The position numbers and the translations under genes are program-made. Source: an uncultured Saprospiraceae bacterium (lineage in GTDB: Bacteria > Bacteroidota > Bacteroidia > Chitinophagales > Saprospiraceae). From it: 64,000 nucleotides of DNA. The notes beneath the pieces were generated by a model that made no database searches, had not been told where the DNA came from, and saw nothing but the letters and a program-made list of their open reading frames with translations. Below, one piece after another: positions 1 to 10,796 of this stretch. Position 1 is the first letter of the stretch; every line of letters starts with the position of its first letter. Where the stretch lies: assembly GCA_938002665.1 (NCBI GenBank), contig CALLAE010000069.1, positions 1-64,000 of the forward strand, written 5' to 3'.

Positions 1-3000
1 CAAGATGGTACCTATGTTCTAAGGATAGATGCATCAGATGAGGTAGACAACGAAAGTTCTCATTCTATAACCTTCTCTGTGGATGGGATAATGGATGCAG
101 ATAATGATGGTGTCTGTGATGCAGATGATCTGTGTCCAAATTTTGATGATAACTTAATAGGCACTTCTTGTGATGATGGAGATGCTTGTACAACAGGAGA
201 GACCTATGATGCTAACTGTGATTGTTCAGGTGGTACTATCCCAGATGCAGATAATGATGGTGTCTGTGATGCGGATGATGTTTGCCCTAACTTTGATGAT
301 GCTCTGATAGGCACTTCTTGTGATGATGGAGATGCTTGTACAACAGGAGAGACCTATGATGCTAACTGTGGTTGCTCAGGCGGAATATTCCAAGATGCAG
401 ATAGCGATGGTGTCTGTGATGCTGATGATCCTTGTCCTAACAATCCTCAAAATGATTGCAATATCATAGAGCCTTGTACAATCTCAACAACAAGCACGTC
501 TTATGAATATATTCAGAGAGTGACTCTAGAATCCATTTCAAATAATTCAGGAAATGACTCAGGTTATGGAGATTATACTCAGCTTAGTGTTAGCTTGGTT
601 ATAGGTCAAGCTTATAGTATTACTCTAACACCAGGATTTCAAAATCAGGCATACAATGAGGTGTGGACTGTGTGGGCTGATTTAGATGGAAATGGAGACT
701 TTGATGGTGCTTCTGAAACCTTGTTCACTGGAAATAGTACCTCAGAGTTAGAAGGACAAATTACGATACCTGCTGGTACGCCTTTCCTTACTACGACCTT
801 GAGAGTTGCCATGCAATATAACTCAGCACCACCTTCTTGTGGAACTTTTACTTATGGAGAGGTAGAAGATTATACCATTATAATAAGTTCAGGATGCACA
901 CAGGGTAGTCCTTGTGATGATGGAGATAATTGCACAACTAATGATGTTTACGATATAAATTGTAATTGTGTAGGGACGGCAATGATAGATTCTGACAATG
1001 ATGGTATCTGTGATGTTGAAGATCAATGTCCAAATTTTGATAATAACTTAATAGGTACTGCTTGTGATGACAATGATAATTGTACCACTGGCGAGACTTA
1101 TGATGCTAATTGTGGTTGCTCCGGTGGCACTTCTCAAGACTCAGATAATGATGGAGTCTGTGATACAGAAGATCTGTGTCCAAATTTTGATGATAGTCTT
1201 ATAGGCACAGCTTGCAATGATAATGATAACTGTACAGCTAATGATGTGTACACTAATGCATGTAATTGTACAGGGACGCCAGTAGCAGATGCTGATAATG
1301 ATGACGTATGCGATGCCAATGATCTCTGCCCAGATTTTGATGACAACTTAATAGGTCAGCCTTGTGATGATGGAAATGCCTGCACATCAGGAGAGACTTA
1401 TGATGTTAATTGTGGTTGCTCAGGTGGTATATTTCAGGATGCGGATAATGATGGTGTCTGCGATGCAGAGGATCTTTGTACTAACTTCGACGATAGTCTA
1501 TTAGGGTTGCCTTGTAATGATAATGATAATTGCACATCGGGTGATGTCTATACTGCTGACTGTGCTTGTGCAGGAACAGCTGTTTCAGATTCTGATAATG
1601 ATGGTGTCTGTGATACAGAAGATCAATGTCCAAATTTTGATGACAGTCTCATAGGCCAAGCTTGTGATGATGGGAATGCCTGTACAACTGGTGAAATCTA
1701 TGATGCTAACTGTGGATGTACAGGTGGTATAGTTCAGGATTTTGACAACGATGGAGTCTGTGATGCAGAAGATGCATGTCCTGGAGAGGATGATAATATA
1801 GATCTAGATAATAACGGTATTCCAGATGGTTGTGAAAACTGTCCTGCTTACAATTTTAATGTTACACCTATCATCGGTTATGACCCTGGACAAGACCTAG
1901 GTAATTTTGAGATTCAGGATGAAGGGTCCACTGTGTATATAGAGAAAAATTCTTGGAAGGCCTTAGACATAGGATATACTGTCACTCCTAATACAGTATT
2001 ATCTTTTGATTTCAAGAGTACAGTGCAAGGTGAGATACATGAAATTTCGTTTGATAATGATTTGTCCTTAGCACCATTACATAGATTTGTTTTATTTGGA
2101 TCACAAGGTTATGGTGGCGATTATTCAGTAGGCACCTATAGTAACTTGGGACAGTGGGAGACGTTTACTATTCCAGTCGGCACCTTATTCAGTGGTAGTT
2201 TCCAGTACTTAGTGCTTACCGCTGATGATGACAATTTTGTAGTAGGAAATTCCTTCTTTAGAAACGTCAGCTTATTTGAGGATATGAATAACGACCTCAG
2301 TTGCGATGAGGACTGTGTGCCAGGTGCTAGTTGTGATGATGGTGATCCTTGCACATCTGGAGAAACTTATGATGCGCTATGCGGCTGTGTAGGTGGCTCG
2401 CTAAATCTAGATAGTGATGGTGATGGTGTCTGTGATCTCATAGATGTCTGCCCTAACTTTGATGATGGCCTGATAGGGACAGACTGTGATGACAATGATC
2501 ATTGTACTATAGGAGAAACCTATGACTCATCATGTGGTTGTTCTGGTGGCCAACTAGTAGATAATGACAATGATGGTGTTTGTGCAACAGAAGATCCAGA
2601 TGACAATGACAGTTGTGTGCCAGATGATTCTAATTGTACTGGCTGCAATACCTACGACTTTAATGATTTCGAAGATGGACTTGGAATCTGGAATGATGGG
2701 GGTTCTGATGCAGCTATAAGTTCTAATTTTAGTTCTTATGCTAAATCTGGTTCTGTCGCTGTAAGAATAAGAGATAACTCAGGTAACTTTTCTTCTATCT
2801 ACACTGACGTGTTGGATCTAAGTAGCTATTCTGGTGTAGACTTTTCGTTTTCATTTGTTCCTAATTCTATGGAGTCTAATGAGGATTTCTTCTTGGAAGT
2901 TTCATCTGATGGAGGGGGTCAATATATGATAGTAGAGGAATGGAATTCTGGTGTAGAAATGACAAATAACGTCAGGCAAGATGTATCGGTCAATATTCCA

Positions 3001-3402
3001 GGAACGCTACTTTCTAGTACCACGGTGTTCAGATTGAGATGTGATGCCTCTACTAATAGTGATAGGGTATATCTGGATGATATACTTATCGAGACTTGTT
3101 CTAGCAGTTTAGATTCTAATGTACAGTTGAGAGCTGGTCAAGATAGAACTTCTATAAGTTCATTATCCGTTTATCCTAATCCTGCTCAAGATGAGCTATT
3201 CTTAGAATTAACTGACGTAGAGAATTTGACAATCAAATCTGTCAAGATTATTTCTTCTTTCGGTAAAGTAATTATGAAACATGATATAGGTAGAACTAGC
3301 ACAGTTAGATTAAATATCTCAGAGTTAGGGAGCCAGGCTTATTTGATAATAGTCGAAGATTCGGAAGGCGCGACGATGGTAGAGAAGTTTTTGAAAATAT
3401 AA
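1..3402 (+). CDS. T9SS-secreted protein with thrombospondin-3-like Cys/Asp repeats (5' end outside window)
   Basis: The reading frame is open from base 1, so the true start and signal peptide lie upstream; a GTG at 79 is only an internal codon. About a dozen units of roughly 50 residues alternate an acidic loop (DADNDGVCDADD type, a Ca2+-binding thrombospondin type 3-like motif) with a Cys-rich half (CDDGDACTTGETYDANCGC type). Three beta-sandwich inserts interrupt the array: a GEVEDY-type domain at about 480-890, an unrecognised one at about 1850-2280, and a jelly-roll-like one at about 2645-3110. The last ~85 residues, with 'SVYPNPAQDELFLEL' and a terminal 'VEKFLKI', form a type A sorting domain, which directs export by the type IX system and anchoring or release at the cell surface. 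A Ca2+-stiffened surface or adhesive role is inferred, not shown. The gene ends just before a strong hairpin terminator. Confidence 0.85.
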   Translation, partial: QDGTYVLRIDASDEVDNESSHSITFSVDGIMDADNDGVCDADDLCPNFDDNLIGTSCDDGDACTTGETYDANCDCSGGTIPDADNDGVCDADDVCPNFDDALIGTSCDDGDACTTGETYDANCGCSGGIFQDADSDGVCDADDPCPNNPQNDCNIIEPCTISTTSTSYEYIQRVTLESISNNSGNDSGYGDYTQLSVSLVIGQAYSITLTPGFQNQAYNEVWTVWADLDGNGDFDGASETLFTGNSTSELEGQITIPAGTPFLTTTLRVAMQYNSAPPSCGTFTYGEVEDYTIIISSGCTQGSPCDDGDNCTTNDVYDINCNCVGTAMIDSDNDGICDVEDQCPNFDNNLIGTACDDNDNCTTGETYDANCGCSGGTSQDSDNDGVCDTEDLCPNFDDSLIGTACNDNDNCTANDVYTNACNCTGTPVADADNDDVCDANDLCPDFDDNLIGQPCDDGNACTSGETYDVNCGCSGGIFQDADNDGVCDAEDLCTNFDDSLLGLPCNDNDNCTSGDVYTADCACAGTAVSDSDNDGVCDTEDQCPNFDDSLIGQACDDGNACTTGEIYDANCGCTGGIVQDFDNDGVCDAEDACPGEDDNIDLDNNGIPDGCENCPAYNFNVTPIIGYDPGQDLGNFEIQDEGSTVYIEKNSWKALDIGYTVTPNTVLSFDFKSTVQGEIHEISFDNDLSLAPLHRFVLFGSQGYGGDYSVGTYSNLGQWETFTIPVGTLFSGSFQYLVLTADDDNFVVGNSFFRNVSLFEDMNNDLSCDEDCVPGASCDDGDPCTSGETYDALCGCVGGSLNLDSDGDGVCDLIDVCPNFDDGLIGTDCDDNDHCTIGETYDSSCGCSGGQLVDNDNDGVCATEDPDDNDSCVPDDSNCTGCNTYDFNDFEDGLGIWNDGGSDAAISSNFSSYAKSGSVAVRIRDNSGNFSSIYTDVLDLSSYSGVDFSFSFVPNSMESNEDFFLEVSSDGGGQYMIVEEWNSGVEMTNNVRQDVSVNIPGTLLSSTTVFRLRCDASTNSDRVYLDDILIETCSSSLDSNVQLRAGQDRTSISSLSVYPNPAQDELFLELTDVENLTIKSVKIISSFGKVIMKHDIGRTSTVRLNISELGSQAYLIIVEDSEGATMVEKFLKI
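91..2640 (+). repeat. In-frame ~150-bp repeats encoding Cys/Asp-rich units
   Basis: Tandem coding repeats share segments such as 'gatgctaactgtggttgctc' and 'aatgatggtgtctgtgatgc'. Some neighbours are nearly identical at the DNA level (around 91-240 and 241-390), suggesting recent duplication or gene conversion. Two classes of Cys half alternate: 'GETYDANCGCSGG' and 'NDVYTNACNCTGT'. Inserted domains split the array into three blocks. Confidence 0.85.
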
Positions 3403-3894: not shown

Positions 3895-4575
3895 TCAATC
3901 TAGACTCCAATCTATTTCTTTCTGACCATTATTCCGAAGAATTTCATTTGTTTTTGAGAAATGCTTGCAATCATTAAAGGCATTTCTGGCAAGGGGAGAG
4001 GGATGGGCCGCTTTTAGTATATGGTGTTTGCTGGTATCTATGAGCTCTGCTTTACTTTTTGCGAAGTTTCCCCAGAGAAGAAATACGATACCTTCTAGGG
4101 AGTCAGAGATGTTTCTGATCACCGCATCAGTAAATTTCTGCCATCCTATCTTACTATGAGAGCCTGCCCGCTTGTGCTCTACTGTAAGCATTGCATTCAG
4201 TAGCAGGACGCCTTGTCCAGCCCATCTGGTCAGATCGCCATGAGATGGGATAGGGTGGCCTAAGTCTCGTTCTATTTCTTTATAGATGTTTTTTAGAGAA
4301 GGCGGTATCCTTACAGTAGCTGGAACAGAAAAGCAAAGCCCCATGGCTTCGCCAGGGTTGTGATAGGGGTCTTGGCCTATAATTACAGCTTTGAGTTGAC
4401 TTACTGGTGTCAGAGTAAAGGCACTAAAAATTAAGTTACCAAGTGGATAGATAGTCTTGCCAGATTTTTTGGCCTCATGTAAGTACTTACTGAGTTCGTC
4501 AAAGTAGGGTTGCTCAAACTCTGAATGAAGCAGCTTCTTCCATGACGATTCTATGTTGACCTCAGTAGGCTTCAT
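3895..4575 (-). CDS. ung: Uracil-DNA glycosylase (family 1)
   Basis: Removes uracil from DNA to start base-excision repair in the cytoplasm. The water-activating motif GQDPYH lies at residues 67-72 (catalytic Asp69), the uracil-stacking 'GLCFSVP' follows at 79-85, and the DNA-intercalation loop HPSPLA is at 191-196 (His191). The 226-residue length matches Escherichia coli Ung. The ATG at 4575 overlaps the upstream esterase stop by one base (TAATG), implying translational coupling. Pairing a DNA-repair enzyme with a secreted esterase is probably operon convenience, not shared function. Confidence 0.97.
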   Translation of the reverse strand: MKPTEVNIESSWKKLLHSEFEQPYFDELSKYLHEAKKSGKTIYPLGNLIFSAFTLTPVSQLKAVIIGQDPYHNPGEAMGLCFSVPATVRIPPSLKNIYKEIERDLGHPIPSHGDLTRWAGQGVLLLNAMLTVEHKRAGSHSKIGWQKFTDAVIRNISDSLEGIVFLLWGNFAKSKAELIDTSKHHILKAAHPSPLARNAFNDCKHFSKTNEILRNNGQKEIDWSLD

Positions 4576-5522
4576 TATAGCTTTACTATCTTTTTGATAA
4601 GGGGTTTGTTATTTGATAAGATTGTAATAAGTACTGTTCCTCCGAAATCCGCATCTAACAAAATGCTATTTTGATTCACCTCATAAGATATTGCTCTTCC
4701 CCAAAGATCAGTTACAATGAGATTTTCCTCATTAATAGCTATGCCTTCTATAGTTACATTGTGAGTTGTAGGGTTAGGATAAATAGTTACTTTATTTTCT
4801 ATTGTAGTTGTTGATGAGCTTTCGCAATTTGTTTCTTTAAGCCAATTATAAGCATCGTTTAGTATCTCATTCCTATTTGGAAAATCTATGGTATGTCCTA
4901 CACCTTGCATCAGTATAGAATTAGTACAGGCCTGTACACCATCTAGAGCAGCTAACAGTGGCTCGTATCTGGTGCTAGGTGTATCATTGCTACCATGGAC
5001 TAAATAGAATGCTTCGTCAGTTGCATTAGGCATTACATCGACAACTTCATTCAGAGTGATGGCTGCTCCTATAATTAGATAGCCCTGAAACTGAGATGTT
5101 CTTCTAAGTCCGTATGAATAAGTAGTCTTGCCACCCCAGCTAAAGCCCATGATATATTTTTCATCTTGATCTATGTTGTACCACACATTCATAGAATCTA
5201 AAAGCACTGTGGTAAAAGAAGTATCTATACTATCATCCACTCTTCCATCAGGCCCACCGTCTGGACAGACGAGCAAGAGTCCGTTATCTTCAGCAAATAC
5301 AATTAAGGTATCTCTCCAAGATTTTGCATCCCACCTGCTTGTATTAAGAGGGTGGAAACCGAGCATCATGGAATTTGGGATAGCATCATCATAGCTGGAC
5401 GGAACATAGATAGAATATTTTTTTGCTGGATCTGTATCGAATGCAAATGCCCCATCTATGGCTTGTGATGATAAAGCAAAAGAAAGCAGAGAACTCAAAA
5501 GAGCGATGTAGATAATTTTCAT
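4575..5522 (-). CDS. Secreted alpha/beta-hydrolase (esterase/depolymerase-like) with T9SS type A domain
   Basis: A 315-residue protein starting with a signal peptide (about residues 1-21). The hydrolase domain carries GFSWGG at 126-131 (nucleophile Ser128), a candidate acid at Asp180 in 'VHGSND', and His210 in 'GVGHTI', the arrangement of feruloyl-esterase or polyhydroxybutyrate-depolymerase-like enzymes. The end (about 245-315, beginning 'VTIYPNPTTHNVTIEG') is a T9SS sorting domain, so the enzyme is expected outside the cell. The substrate cannot be told from sequence. First gene of the esterase-ung-DUF423 set; no clear -7 box was seen in front of it. Confidence 0.85.
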   Translation of the reverse strand: MKIIYIALLSSLLSFALSSQAIDGAFAFDTDPAKKYSIYVPSSYDDAIPNSMMLGFHPLNTSRWDAKSWRDTLIVFAEDNGLLLVCPDGGPDGRVDDSIDTSFTTVLLDSMNVWYNIDQDEKYIMGFSWGGKTTYSYGLRRTSQFQGYLIIGAAITLNEVVDVMPNATDEAFYLVHGSNDTPSTRYEPLLAALDGVQACTNSILMQGVGHTIDFPNRNEILNDAYNWLKETNCESSSTTTIENKVTIYPNPTTHNVTIEGIAINEENLIVTDLWGRAISYEVNQNSILLDADFGGTVLITILSNNKPLIKKIVKL

Positions 5523-5619: not shown

Positions 5620-5646
5620 TAAAAAAGGCCAGCGTCGACACTGGCC
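5620..5646 (-). terminator. Intrinsic terminator of the Cys-peptide gene
   Basis: Read on the minus strand: an 8-bp stem (GGCCAGTG / CGCTGGCC, one wobble pair) with loop TCGA followed by six T. It sits 12 nt past the stop of the 31-codon gene and separates it from the esterase operon, which supports that gene being a real transcription unit. Confidence 0.9.
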
Positions 5647-5657
5647 CATCTTTTATA

Positions 5658-5753
5658 TTAGCAGCATGCACCACCTGCACAACAAGGCAGGTCACAACAT
5701 GCTATTGCAGCTAGACTTACTAAGCCTATCATTGCAAACATCAATTTTTTCAT
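5658..5753 (-). CDS. 31-residue exported Cys-rich peptide, ArsR-linked
   Basis: The encoded peptide has a basic start (MKK), a hydrophobic core (residues 4-18) ending in AIA, an Ala-x-Ala signal peptidase site, then a 13-residue tail CC-DLP-CC-AGGA-CC. Six of those 13 residues are Cys in three vicinal pairs, a likely soft-metal or arsenite ligand set (inference). Reading Cys19 as a lipobox Cys is possible but the box would be weak. Support as a gene: its own terminator (5620-5646), an upstream palindrome (5816-5831) almost identical to the one at the arsR start, and the adjacent ArsR repressor. I do not recognise the family. The product could buffer or sense metal in the periplasm. Confidence 0.7.
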   Translation of the reverse strand: MKKLMFAMIGLVSLAAIACCDLPCCAGGACC

Positions 5754-5815
5754 CTTTTGCATTTTAAGAGTTAAGAAATAGAACTTAAGACTTCTTCTTA
5801 GTTCTTTATATTAAC

Positions 5816-5831
5816 ATCGTAATATTACGAT
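5816..5831. promoter_or_regulatory. ArsR-type operator upstream of the Cys-peptide gene
   Basis: A perfect 16-bp palindrome, ATCGTAATATTACGAT, lies between the arsR stop and the small peptide gene, 62 nt before its start. It differs at one base from the palindrome abutting arsR (6178-6193). Two near-identical copies flanking a regulator gene is the usual sign of its operators. Confidence 0.75.
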
Positions 5832-5859
5832 AGCTATAGCCAAAAAAATAGCCATTAGA

Positions 5860-6177
5860 TCAGCAGCATTTTGCTTTTGAAAAAATCGCTCTGAGTTGTT
5901 GCATAAGTAGTTTACAACTATCCATGTCTATACAGTAACATCTGTATGGTCCATCTACTTCTCCTTTAATAATTCCCGCTTCTTTCATTGCTTTCAAATG
6001 CTGAGAAACGGTAGACTGTGATAAGGGCAACTTAGATACAATATCCCCACAGACACAACTTCCTTCATTGATTATGTGTTCTAGAATAGCTACGCGGGCT
6101 GGATGCCCTATGGCTTTGGCCATGATTGCTATTTTGTTTTGATAATCAGTAAAAAGTTCTGTTTTGGTCAAACCCAT
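5860..6177 (-). CDS. ArsR/SmtB family metal-responsive repressor
   Basis: A 105-residue winged-helix repressor. The DNA-recognition region '[19 protein letters not shown]' is at about 50-68. Cys41-Val-Cys43 corresponds to the 'ELCVCD' inducer motif of ArsR/CadC, and further Cys occur at 80, 82, 88, 104 and 105, so the inducer is probably arsenite, antimonite or a soft divalent metal. The ATG at 6177 gives the common Bacteroidota N-terminus MGLTKTE. The operator at 6178-6193 touches this ATG and covers the -7 box, so the gene is likely autoregulated and nearly leaderless. No arsenite pump or reductase lies beside it; the apparent target is the Cys-peptide gene. Confidence 0.9.
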
Positions 6178-6193
6178 ATCGCAATATTACGAT
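6178..6193. promoter_or_regulatory. ArsR-type operator at the arsR start
   Basis: ATCGCAATATTACGAT, a 16-bp palindrome with one mismatched pair, directly precedes the arsR start codon and differs at one base from the copy at 5816-5831. It overlaps the predicted -7 element, fitting repression by promoter occlusion. Confidence 0.75.
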
Positions 6194-6212
6194 TTTATTG
6201 GTAATAAGCCAA
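6182..6212 (-). promoter_or_regulatory. arsR promoter
   Basis: On the minus strand, TTG (6212-6210), a 20-nt spacer, then TAATATTG (6189-6182), one base from the Bacteroidota TAnnTTTG consensus. The -7 box ends 5 nt before the start codon, so transcription would begin at or next to the ATG. Confidence 0.55.
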
Positions 6213-9153: not shown

Positions 9154-9600
9154 ATGAAGAATACAACCTTTGTTAATACAAGAGAAAGCCTAGATGTTGT
9201 TGTTGAATTGCATTCACATCACAGAAGATTCCACTCTTATCTAGATAAGTTGGCGGCAAGTTCTAATGAAGTAGCTGTAATAGAATTACTTATCGAGATT
9301 AGAAAATACAATATGGACTGTATAGAGAAATATAGCGGTCTGATTTCTAGAGGTAAAATCAAGACTAAGTTATCAGTCAAAACTTCTTTTTCTGAAAATA
9401 TAACAGGACTTAGAGAAGATGATATGACCTTATGGAATATACATGGTCAGCTGGCTCGTCTCATTCCTGTTTATCTACAAGCGCTCAGGAATAAATCTAT
9501 CAATAAAGTTGTAAGAGCAATTATCAGCAACAACTATGACCAGCTTATTCTTATCAAGGATGACTTATTGCATCCTTTGCCAGCGTTAGAGCATGCCTAG
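9154..9600 (+). CDS. Unknown helical protein, 148 aa
   Basis: No recognised motif. The composition predicts an almost all-alpha protein: helices at about 10-35, 38-60, 85-110 and 115-140, with several His near the start ('ELHSHHRRFHSYLDKL'). This could be a hemerythrin-like or ferritin-like small bundle, but the ligand spacing is not convincing. No signal peptide or membrane segment. The stop codon shares the bases CTAG with the stop of the convergent gene at 9597. An ATG start at 9154 follows a 177-nt AT-rich gap after ygiQ, so it probably has its own promoter. Confidence 0.6.
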   Translation: MKNTTFVNTRESLDVVVELHSHHRRFHSYLDKLAASSNEVAVIELLIEIRKYNMDCIEKYSGLISRGKIKTKLSVKTSFSENITGLREDDMTLWNIHGQLARLIPVYLQALRNKSINKVVRAIISNNYDQLILIKDDLLHPLPALEHA

Positions 9601-10796
9601 CATTCTGGCGGCATAAATTCATCTTCTTTACAGCAGTCAGGTACATCATTGATACAGACCTTTAGATAATCGTAGTCCTCACCACTTATAGGAAAGTCTA
9701 TAATTTCTATGGGAAGGTCAGATAGTTTGAAATAGTCGATAAGGATTCCTTGTCGGATGTAAACATCGAAAAATTCATTTCCAGCATTCTCATATTCAAA
9801 ATCTAAAACAATATTATAAGTACTATCAGAGGTGCATTCCTTTACCTCGATGACTAAGTCATATATCTCACATTCATTTTCCTCACATGAGGGAGGCATG
9901 AACTCTACTTCTTTGCAGCAATCAGGGTTATCAGTCATGCAAATCTTTATAAAATCATATTCTTTCCCACTAAGAGCAAAGTCATCTAATTCTAAAGGAA
10001 GTGTCGAAAGTGGGTAATTAGCTATCCTTTCGTTATTCCTTATGAAAACTTCAAAATTGCTATGTGTAGCGTTGTCATACTCAAAATTTAAAGTAAGCTC
10101 ATAAGTCTTTTCTGAGGTGCAATCACCCAGCTCTACTTTGAGGTCTGAAATTTCACAATCCGTTTCTTCACATATAGCAGGCATGAATTCTATTTCTTTG
10201 CAGCAATCTAAGTTGTCGTTGATACAGATTTTTAAGTAGTCATACTCTAGACCACTTGTTTCGAATTTAGTTAGGCTAAGAGGTAGGTCTGATAACTTAT
10301 AATAATCTATAAGTTCTCCATTTCTAATAAATAGATCGAAAAAGTCATTTGTTGCATTTTCATATTCTAAGAAGAGATCAAGACTGTATATTCCTTCAGT
10401 AATGCATTCTCCCACTTCTACCTCTAAGGCAGTAATCAGACAATCTCCCGTTTCTTCTTTACAATCTGGGGGAAAGAATTCTATTTCTTTAGTGCACTCA
10501 TCGTCTTCATTTAGTCGGACTTTTAGATAGTCATCGCTCAGTCCGCTCATCTCAAATTTGTCAATGGTAATGGGAAGGTCAGCTAATTTATAATGACCAA
10601 CGAGCATATTATTTCTAGAGAATAATTCAAAGTATTCCGAATCTGATCCTTCTGCAATAAAGTTGACTGTCAACGCATAGGAGTCCTCACAACTGCATTC
10701 GCCGACGGTTACTTCTAGATCTCTGATAAAACAAACATCTCCCCCACAACTTAAAAGCGAGATTAATAAGAGGATAGTGAATATTCTTAAGAACAT
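9597..10796 (-). CDS. Lipoprotein of four ~95-residue Cys-bounded repeats
   Basis: A 399-residue protein with a short lipoprotein signal (MFLRIFTILLLISLLSC; lipid Cys at about 17). The rest is four tandem units. Each runs from a Cys before 'I-x-D-L-x-V-E-V-G-E-C-T', through 'FEYENA', 'FIRN', 'YKLSDLPL' and 'SGxxYDYLKICIND', to 'CCKEIEFMPP-C'. Six conserved Cys per unit suggest disulfides between flanking strands, so each unit is probably an Ig-like beta-sandwich facing the periplasm or exterior. The first unit is most divergent and lacks the CC pair (ECTKEIEFFPP). No known family recognised. The terminal Cys is the last residue, so the array ends flush with the gene. Confidence 0.75.
   Translation of the reverse strand: MFLRIFTILLLISLLSCGGDVCFIRDLEVTVGECSCEDSYALTVNFIAEGSDSEYFELFSRNNMLVGHYKLADLPITIDKFEMSGLSDDYLKVRLNEDDECTKEIEFFPPDCKEETGDCLITALEVEVGECITEGIYSLDLFLEYENATNDFFDLFIRNGELIDYYKLSDLPLSLTKFETSGLEYDYLKICINDNLDCCKEIEFMPAICEETDCEISDLKVELGDCTSEKTYELTLNFEYDNATHSNFEVFIRNNERIANYPLSTLPLELDDFALSGKEYDFIKICMTDNPDCCKEVEFMPPSCEENECEIYDLVIEVKECTSDSTYNIVLDFEYENAGNEFFDVYIRQGILIDYFKLSDLPIEIIDFPISGEDYDYLKVCINDVPDCCKEDEFMPPEC

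Follow-up and report, generated by a model that had tools for sequence, protein, structure and literature searches.

The window analysed here (the whole 64,000-nucleotide stretch of DNA from an uncultured Saprospiraceae bacterium) exhibits a two-gene locus that we consider, on balance, to be an arsenic-response cassette consisting of a repressor and an exported thiol peptide, with its inducer, topology, ligand and protective role predicted from sequence comparison. The repressor is of the ArsR/SmtB type, and its partner is a six-cysteine peptide, probably a miniature arsenic-trapping peptide. Both genes are on the minus strand, where arsR is followed after 106 nt by the peptide gene and then by a terminator hairpin. 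The features of the locus are as follows.

6178-6193: operator 1, ATCGTAATATTGCGAT as read on the minus strand, immediately adjoining the start codon of arsR.
5860-6177, minus strand: ArsR/SmtB-type repressor of 105 aa, assigned by Pfam and NCBIfam matches and by the clade tree.
5832-5848, minus strand: block TTTTTTTGGCTATAGCT, which immediately precedes operator 2 and is conserved across homologous loci.
5816-5831: operator 2, ATCGTAATATTACGAT, perfectly palindromic and separated by 62 nt from the ATG of the peptide gene.
5658-5753, minus strand: six-cysteine peptide gene of 31 codons (96 nt with the stop), assigned by homologue comparison.
5700-5753, minus strand: signal-like segment MKKLMFAMIGLVSLAAIA, with a basic start, a hydrophobic core and A-I-A before the first cysteine.
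5661-5699, minus strand: presumed mature part CCDLPCCAGGACC, its six cluster cysteines invariant in 17/17 homologues.
5626-5647, minus strand: intrinsic terminator, with a stem of 9 pairs and a T run after it.

Re-reading of the coordinates agrees with an earlier, sequence-only reading of this locus, which had reported an ArsR gene 106 nt upstream of a 31-codon gene, near-identical 16-bp palindromes at both gene starts (one is perfect, the other one change away), a terminator of the peptide's own (the 9-pair stem and T run at 5647-5626) and no adjoining pump or reductase; the first 14 kb of the window contain no arsenic gene next to the unit. Operator 2 lies 28 nt past the arsR stop. In the whole 3.76 Mb genome the two operators are the only sites within one mismatch of the operator 2 sequence, which excludes a chance origin of both palindromes. 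An upstream in-frame ATG at 5762 would give an alternative peptide of 34 aa. Since a relative (G004) exhibits an ATG directly followed by TAA at the matching position, this longer reading is unlikely and the start is placed at 5753. A sigma-70 scan of the locus gave matches near the shuffled level and fixed no clear Bacteroidota promoter; the conserved block before operator 2 is probably part of the peptide promoter.

Other genes of the window include a putative secreted hydrolase (4575-5522) just downstream of the peptide terminator, with a weak match to a Por secretion tail below the Pfam cut-off; in G004 and G009 a homologue occupies the corresponding position. A putative lipoprotein of 399 aa (9597-10796) exhibits four Cys-patterned repeats of about 90 residues, and a homologue lies near the corresponding ArsR unit in G004. 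A large protein (1-3402) is built of repeated DADNDGVCDADD/CDDGDACTSGETYDANCGCSGG units and ends in a sorting-like C-terminal tail.

Homologues of the peptide (17 including that of the window, 28-34 aa) were identified at Saprospiraceae loci from several genera. They come from loci beside ArsR orthologues, from profile searches, from one loose DNA-pattern match and from one named Saprospiraceae MAG (L087, JAHDHJ010000016.1), the ArsR of which falls in the clade described below. All share a basic start, a hydrophobic stretch and a CC-x3-CC-x3/4-CC cluster; the window peptide reads CC-x3-CC-x4-CC, with six cysteines among its final 13 residues, and the variant in G195 is exactly CCPGCC-APG-CC. 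The 105 cysteine codons of the 17 homologues all encode cysteine, 58 as TGT and 47 as TGC, a mixture indicating synonymous drift of the codons while the residue stays. The residues around the cysteines and the hydrophobic parts are poorly conserved, the Cys cluster alone being invariant, and the signal-like segment is kept in type rather than in sequence in 17/17 homologues. Stem-loops can be read after the peptide stop in nearly all of them. The sequence-only reading had staked the gene on whether its small frame is conserved beside related ArsRs or frameshifted there; the frame is intact in 16 relatives. These comparisons indicate that the small gene, which carries no annotation, is real. 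The peptide belongs to no Pfam family and has no NCBIfam match above cut-off, known metallothionein families included.

Export of the peptide, and the placing of its Cys cluster, are predicted from the N-terminus. The residue before the first cysteine is often small (AIA in the window, AxA in many members), with T, L or I in some, and a PS51257-like lipobox at the first cysteine is found in 11/17 homologues and is absent in six. The Ala-x-Ala site previously proposed as a cleavage site is thus present as A-I-A, but cleavage by signal peptidase I is one candidate route among several: the product could also be processed as a lipoprotein or stay as an uncleaved anchor, the signal being too short to distinguish cleavage from anchoring. 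Two further Cys-pair peptides, each preceded by an operator, have no signal segment. One, MKTWLSNLLGGGGCCGGSGCC, is found in G036 (L014:2049-2114), and the other, MRNSISFQTSTTEGGCCGTGCGNGCC, lies at 4386-4466 of L166 inside an ArsR-DUF6428-GNAT operon. If these are true relatives, export is not universal.

The window ArsR scores 45.2 bits against PF01022 (cut-off 22) and 64.9 bits against NF033788 (cut-off 55). Among solved ArsR structures, only distant homologues were found for it. Its cysteines are those of CVC (41-43, within SCVCGD in the recognition region), CYC (80-82), C88 and a C-terminal CC (AKCC). An ArsR adjoins 16 of the 17 peptide homologues, and in a tree of 114 ArsRs these 16 peptide-linked sequences form, with those of G036 and G007, one clade of 18 with a support of 100/95, apart from the 96 other ArsRs; the tree is based on few columns and its inner forks are weak. 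The cysteines of CVC, CYC and the C-terminal pair are invariant among the peptide-linked ArsRs. Release of the repressor had been attributed to Cys-x-Cys. The CVC is indeed there, but it is not the sole candidate sensor site, because all peptide-linked ArsRs also carry CYC and end in a Cys pair.

In 16/16 arsR-linked loci with a signal-bearing peptide, the palindrome ATCGYAATATTRCGAT precedes arsR by 0-5 nt and recurs in the interval that separates this gene from that of the peptide, the second copy lying 18-41 nt past the arsR stop. G069 has one extra operator copy, and the first operator of G728 exhibits two mismatches. In each of the 16 loci a T-tract immediately precedes the second operator, and 12 of them also retain GGCTATAGC. 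At the level of sequence, ArsR thus has a palindromic operator at its own promoter, and the pair of operators in the 16 loci supports the earlier proposal that the repressor would control both itself and the peptide. Several genomes preserve the two-gene unit among flanking genes that bear no relation to one another.

We compared the unit with 80 named ArsR relatives, from Bacteroidota and a few Balneolota, Ignavibacteriota, KSB1 and Acidobacteriota. The palindrome, with at most one mismatch, lies upstream of arsR in 67/80 of them, and a second copy (at most two mismatches) just after arsR in 35/80. Twin operators are therefore present in the window as had been reported, but they are an ordinary trait of the ArsR subfamily and not a special design. 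Downstream of the 80 arsR genes we found ArsC-type proteins (52), DUF6428 (43), Acr3 (33), ArsM (26), acetyltransferases (13) and MIP channels (9); ArsN is also among the genes under the subfamily operator in Bacteroidota ars operons. Cluster representatives score 447 bits for Acr3 (cut-off 283), 353 for ArsM (cut-off 263) and 139 for ArsN2 (cut-off 125); that of ArsC has an arsenate-reductase model as its best match, at 160 bits just below the cut-off of 174. Pfam confirms LMWPc, DUF6428, SBF and MIP in these operons. By its distribution, the palindrome is the operator that this ArsR subfamily generally uses in Bacteroidota. Genes for efflux, reduction or methylation are absent at the window locus and in the peptide clade, and present in the wider subfamily with the shared operator.

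Since the same palindrome and ArsR subfamily run acr3/arsC/arsM operons elsewhere in the phylum, the regulator subfamily is an arsenic one, and the peptide unit is most likely induced by As(III)/Sb(III). The "metal- or arsenite" response proposed from the sequence alone is accordingly narrowed to arsenite or antimonite. The same cassette might nevertheless serve another soft-metal ligand (Cu(I), Cd, Hg, Bi or Zn); the ArsR would then be a general thiol-metal repressor and the peptide an exported mini-metallothionein. Any thiophilic ion can be bound by Cys pairs, no arsenic gene adjoins the unit in the first 14 kb, and there is a precedent in AzuR-NmtA, where the metallothionein protects against cadmium (PMC8790569). 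We regard this alternative as unlikely, as the closest well-defined relatives that share the operator belong to acr3/arsC/arsM operons.

Two natural dissections of the unit bear on its regulation. In G007 (L008:1482-1868), arsR, with a GTG start, and both operators are kept and no Cys-pair frame follows; read from this arrangement, the locus is a loss of the peptide with arsR kept. In G085 (L212:1797-2050), the peptide gene is intact and the two operators are separated by 79 nt from which arsR is missing, an arrangement that is an arsR deletion scar. The operators of G085 read ATCGCAATATTGCGAT and are identical to the operator between arsR and DUF6428 elsewhere in the same genome (L216:1850). 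This identity suggests that an arsenic-type ArsR acts on the peptide gene in trans, and it again argues against another soft metal as the ligand of the orphan peptide.

Cysteine pairs recur at the ends of arsenic proteins. In the 80 named loci, CC occurs within the last 12 residues of 41/43 DUF6428 proteins and 21/26 ArsM-like proteins (e.g. CCTPGGGCC, CCAPGCC), against a rough background of 8/62 for unclustered neighbouring ORFs. The clustered ArsRs end in CC in 74/74 cases, an outcome favoured by their ranking on similarity to CC-ending queries. As like tails recur on cytosolic ars proteins, the peptide may be a free-standing exported Cys-pair tail. It might alternatively be a small membrane peptide that modulates a partner under arsenic stress (e.g. 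an aquaglyceroporin or an exporter), its Cys pairs acting as a redox or metalloid switch. The short hydrophobic core fits uncleaved anchoring, no clean cleavage site precedes the first cysteine in several members, and MIP-type channels occur in related ars operons (9/80 loci). The poor conservation of the hydrophobic parts beside an invariant Cys cluster, and the occurrence of Cys-pair tails on soluble ars proteins too, make such a modulator rather improbable.

In the genome of the window, a paralogous ArsR is accompanied by DUF6428 and by an acetyltransferase resembling ArsN1, whose best NCBIfam match is the ArsN1a model at a score below cut-off. Neither Acr3 nor ArsB was found in this assembly, which is 87.5% complete, nor was any ArsM above cut-off. 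Acr3 exceeds its cut-off in 1/14 peptide-bearing genomes searched, G036 being counted (the one is G023), and ArsB is absent from 13/13. The scarcity of pumps, with the AxA that precedes the first cysteine in many members, might suggest a secreted carrier, a cleaved 13-mer leaving the cell with bound arsenite in place of a pump. Among the genus-mates without the peptide (G001, G007, G008, G011 and G013), Acr3 exceeds the cut-off in G008 only. We thus rejected the absence of Acr3 as a sign that the peptide replaces the pump and, cleavage sites being not uniform either, regard a secreted carrier as quite improbable.

A Cys-sensing leader peptide or nascent-chain attenuator with no functional product would account for a short ORF rich in cysteine codons behind a regulator gene, and a nascent exported protein is reported to regulate translation upon copper in another bacterium (PMC9973294). 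Here there is nothing to attenuate, because a terminator directly follows the stop and the downstream gene differs between genomes; with no regulated gene downstream in the same transcript, this reading is very improbable and was rejected. A precursor of a modified peptide (RiPP) or an antimicrobial peptide, to which the leader-like part and the Cys-rich core could point, is scarcely credible and was also rejected, given that no constant modifying enzyme or dedicated transporter adjoins and that the operator belongs to an arsenic regulator subfamily.

The trait is narrow and patchy. We found no convincing peptide member outside the family in overlapping samples of 395 phylum, 398 order and 395 class genomes; outside the family, profile searches of the phylum and class samples returned signal-peptide-like noise or nothing. 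Within the family, the first peptide profile matched 11/328 genomes; most members searched are without the peptide, which is therefore optional. A DNA pattern of three Cys pairs, applied to 298 family genomes, was too loose and was abandoned: most matches were out-of-frame CTG/TGC repeats, the G195 locus being the sole useful new one. The family is assigned to Saprospiraceae on the strength of two entries so named, L087, which belongs to the ArsR clade, and L117, whose ArsR is identical to that of the family genome G028.

Under the arsenic-response reading, an ArsR dimer would sit on both palindromes and repress itself and the peptide. As(III) or Sb(III) would bind the ArsR cysteines and the repressor would leave the DNA; both genes would then be transcribed, the transcript ending at the hairpin. 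The signal-like N-terminus would carry the 31-residue product to the inner membrane with its basic start inside, and the CC-x3-CC-x4-CC cluster would face the periplasm, whether cleaved, lipidated or as an uncleaved anchor. There its vicinal thiols would hold soft metalloid ions, above all arsenite, with Cd, Cu(I), Hg and Bi as further candidate ligands. The main chemical doubt is that periplasmic thiols may be oxidised to disulfides in aerobic cells. We propose more tentatively that the exported part of about 13 residues is an arsenite-binding "mini-metallothionein" through which alone this ArsR would answer arsenic, that it is a natural form of the tetracysteine (FlAsH-like) motif, and that its design is akin to that of the Cys-pair tails on DUF6428, ArsM and ArsR in Bacteroidota ars operons.

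Cys-based As(III) sensing is a known property of ArsR repressors, including R773 ArsR, AfArsR and CgArsR. The As(III) site of R773 ArsR is made of Cys32, Cys34 and Cys37, and its CxC is like the CVC of the window ArsR. That of AfArsR consists of Cys95, Cys96 and Cys102, with vicinal cysteines near the C-terminus (PMC13236881), which the C-terminal CC of the window ArsR resembles. Unlike these three repressors, the window ArsR combines CVC, CYC and CC as candidate sensor sites.

Some of the closest known parallels are in cyanobacteria, where the SmtB-SmtA system has an ArsR/SmtB repressor controlling the gene of a small Cys-rich protein. Likewise, the cyanobacterial ArsR/SmtB repressor AzuR regulates the metallothionein NmtA; metallothioneins are described as cytosolic (PMC8790569). 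The window unit shares the pairing of an ArsR/SmtB repressor with a small Cys-rich protein gene and differs in the length of the product (28-34 aa), its signal-like N-terminus, the lack of any Pfam or NCBIfam match and the ars-operon operator. With Bacteroidota ars operons it shares the ArsR subfamily, the palindrome, often its twin placing before and after arsR, and Cys-pair tails on the partners; in contrast to them it has no pump, reductase or methylase, an exported peptide being the sole partner. The biarsenical tetracysteine tag FLNCCPGCCMEP (PMC5638890), with its core CCPGCC, exhibits the same CC-x2/3-CC spacing, and the G195 peptide holds CCPGCC exactly. The tag was engineered for dyes with two arsenic atoms, whereas the peptide is natural, has a third Cys pair and mostly a three-residue spacer.

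Pairs of a repressor and a metallothionein (PMC8790569), and vicinal-Cys As(III) sites in ArsR (PMC13236881), were thus already known. Our search of the open-access literature turned up no account of DUF6428 or of an exported Cys peptide linked to ArsR. If the proposed reading is true, an exported peptide binder would join efflux, reduction and methylation among the known bacterial arsenic defences, with an effector gene of only 96 nt lying outside every Pfam and NCBIfam model. The engineered tetracysteine tag would then have a counterpart in nature, and the operator, repressor and peptide would make a ready-made biosensor part. The recurrent Cys-pair tails of Bacteroidota arsenic proteins would also become worth testing.
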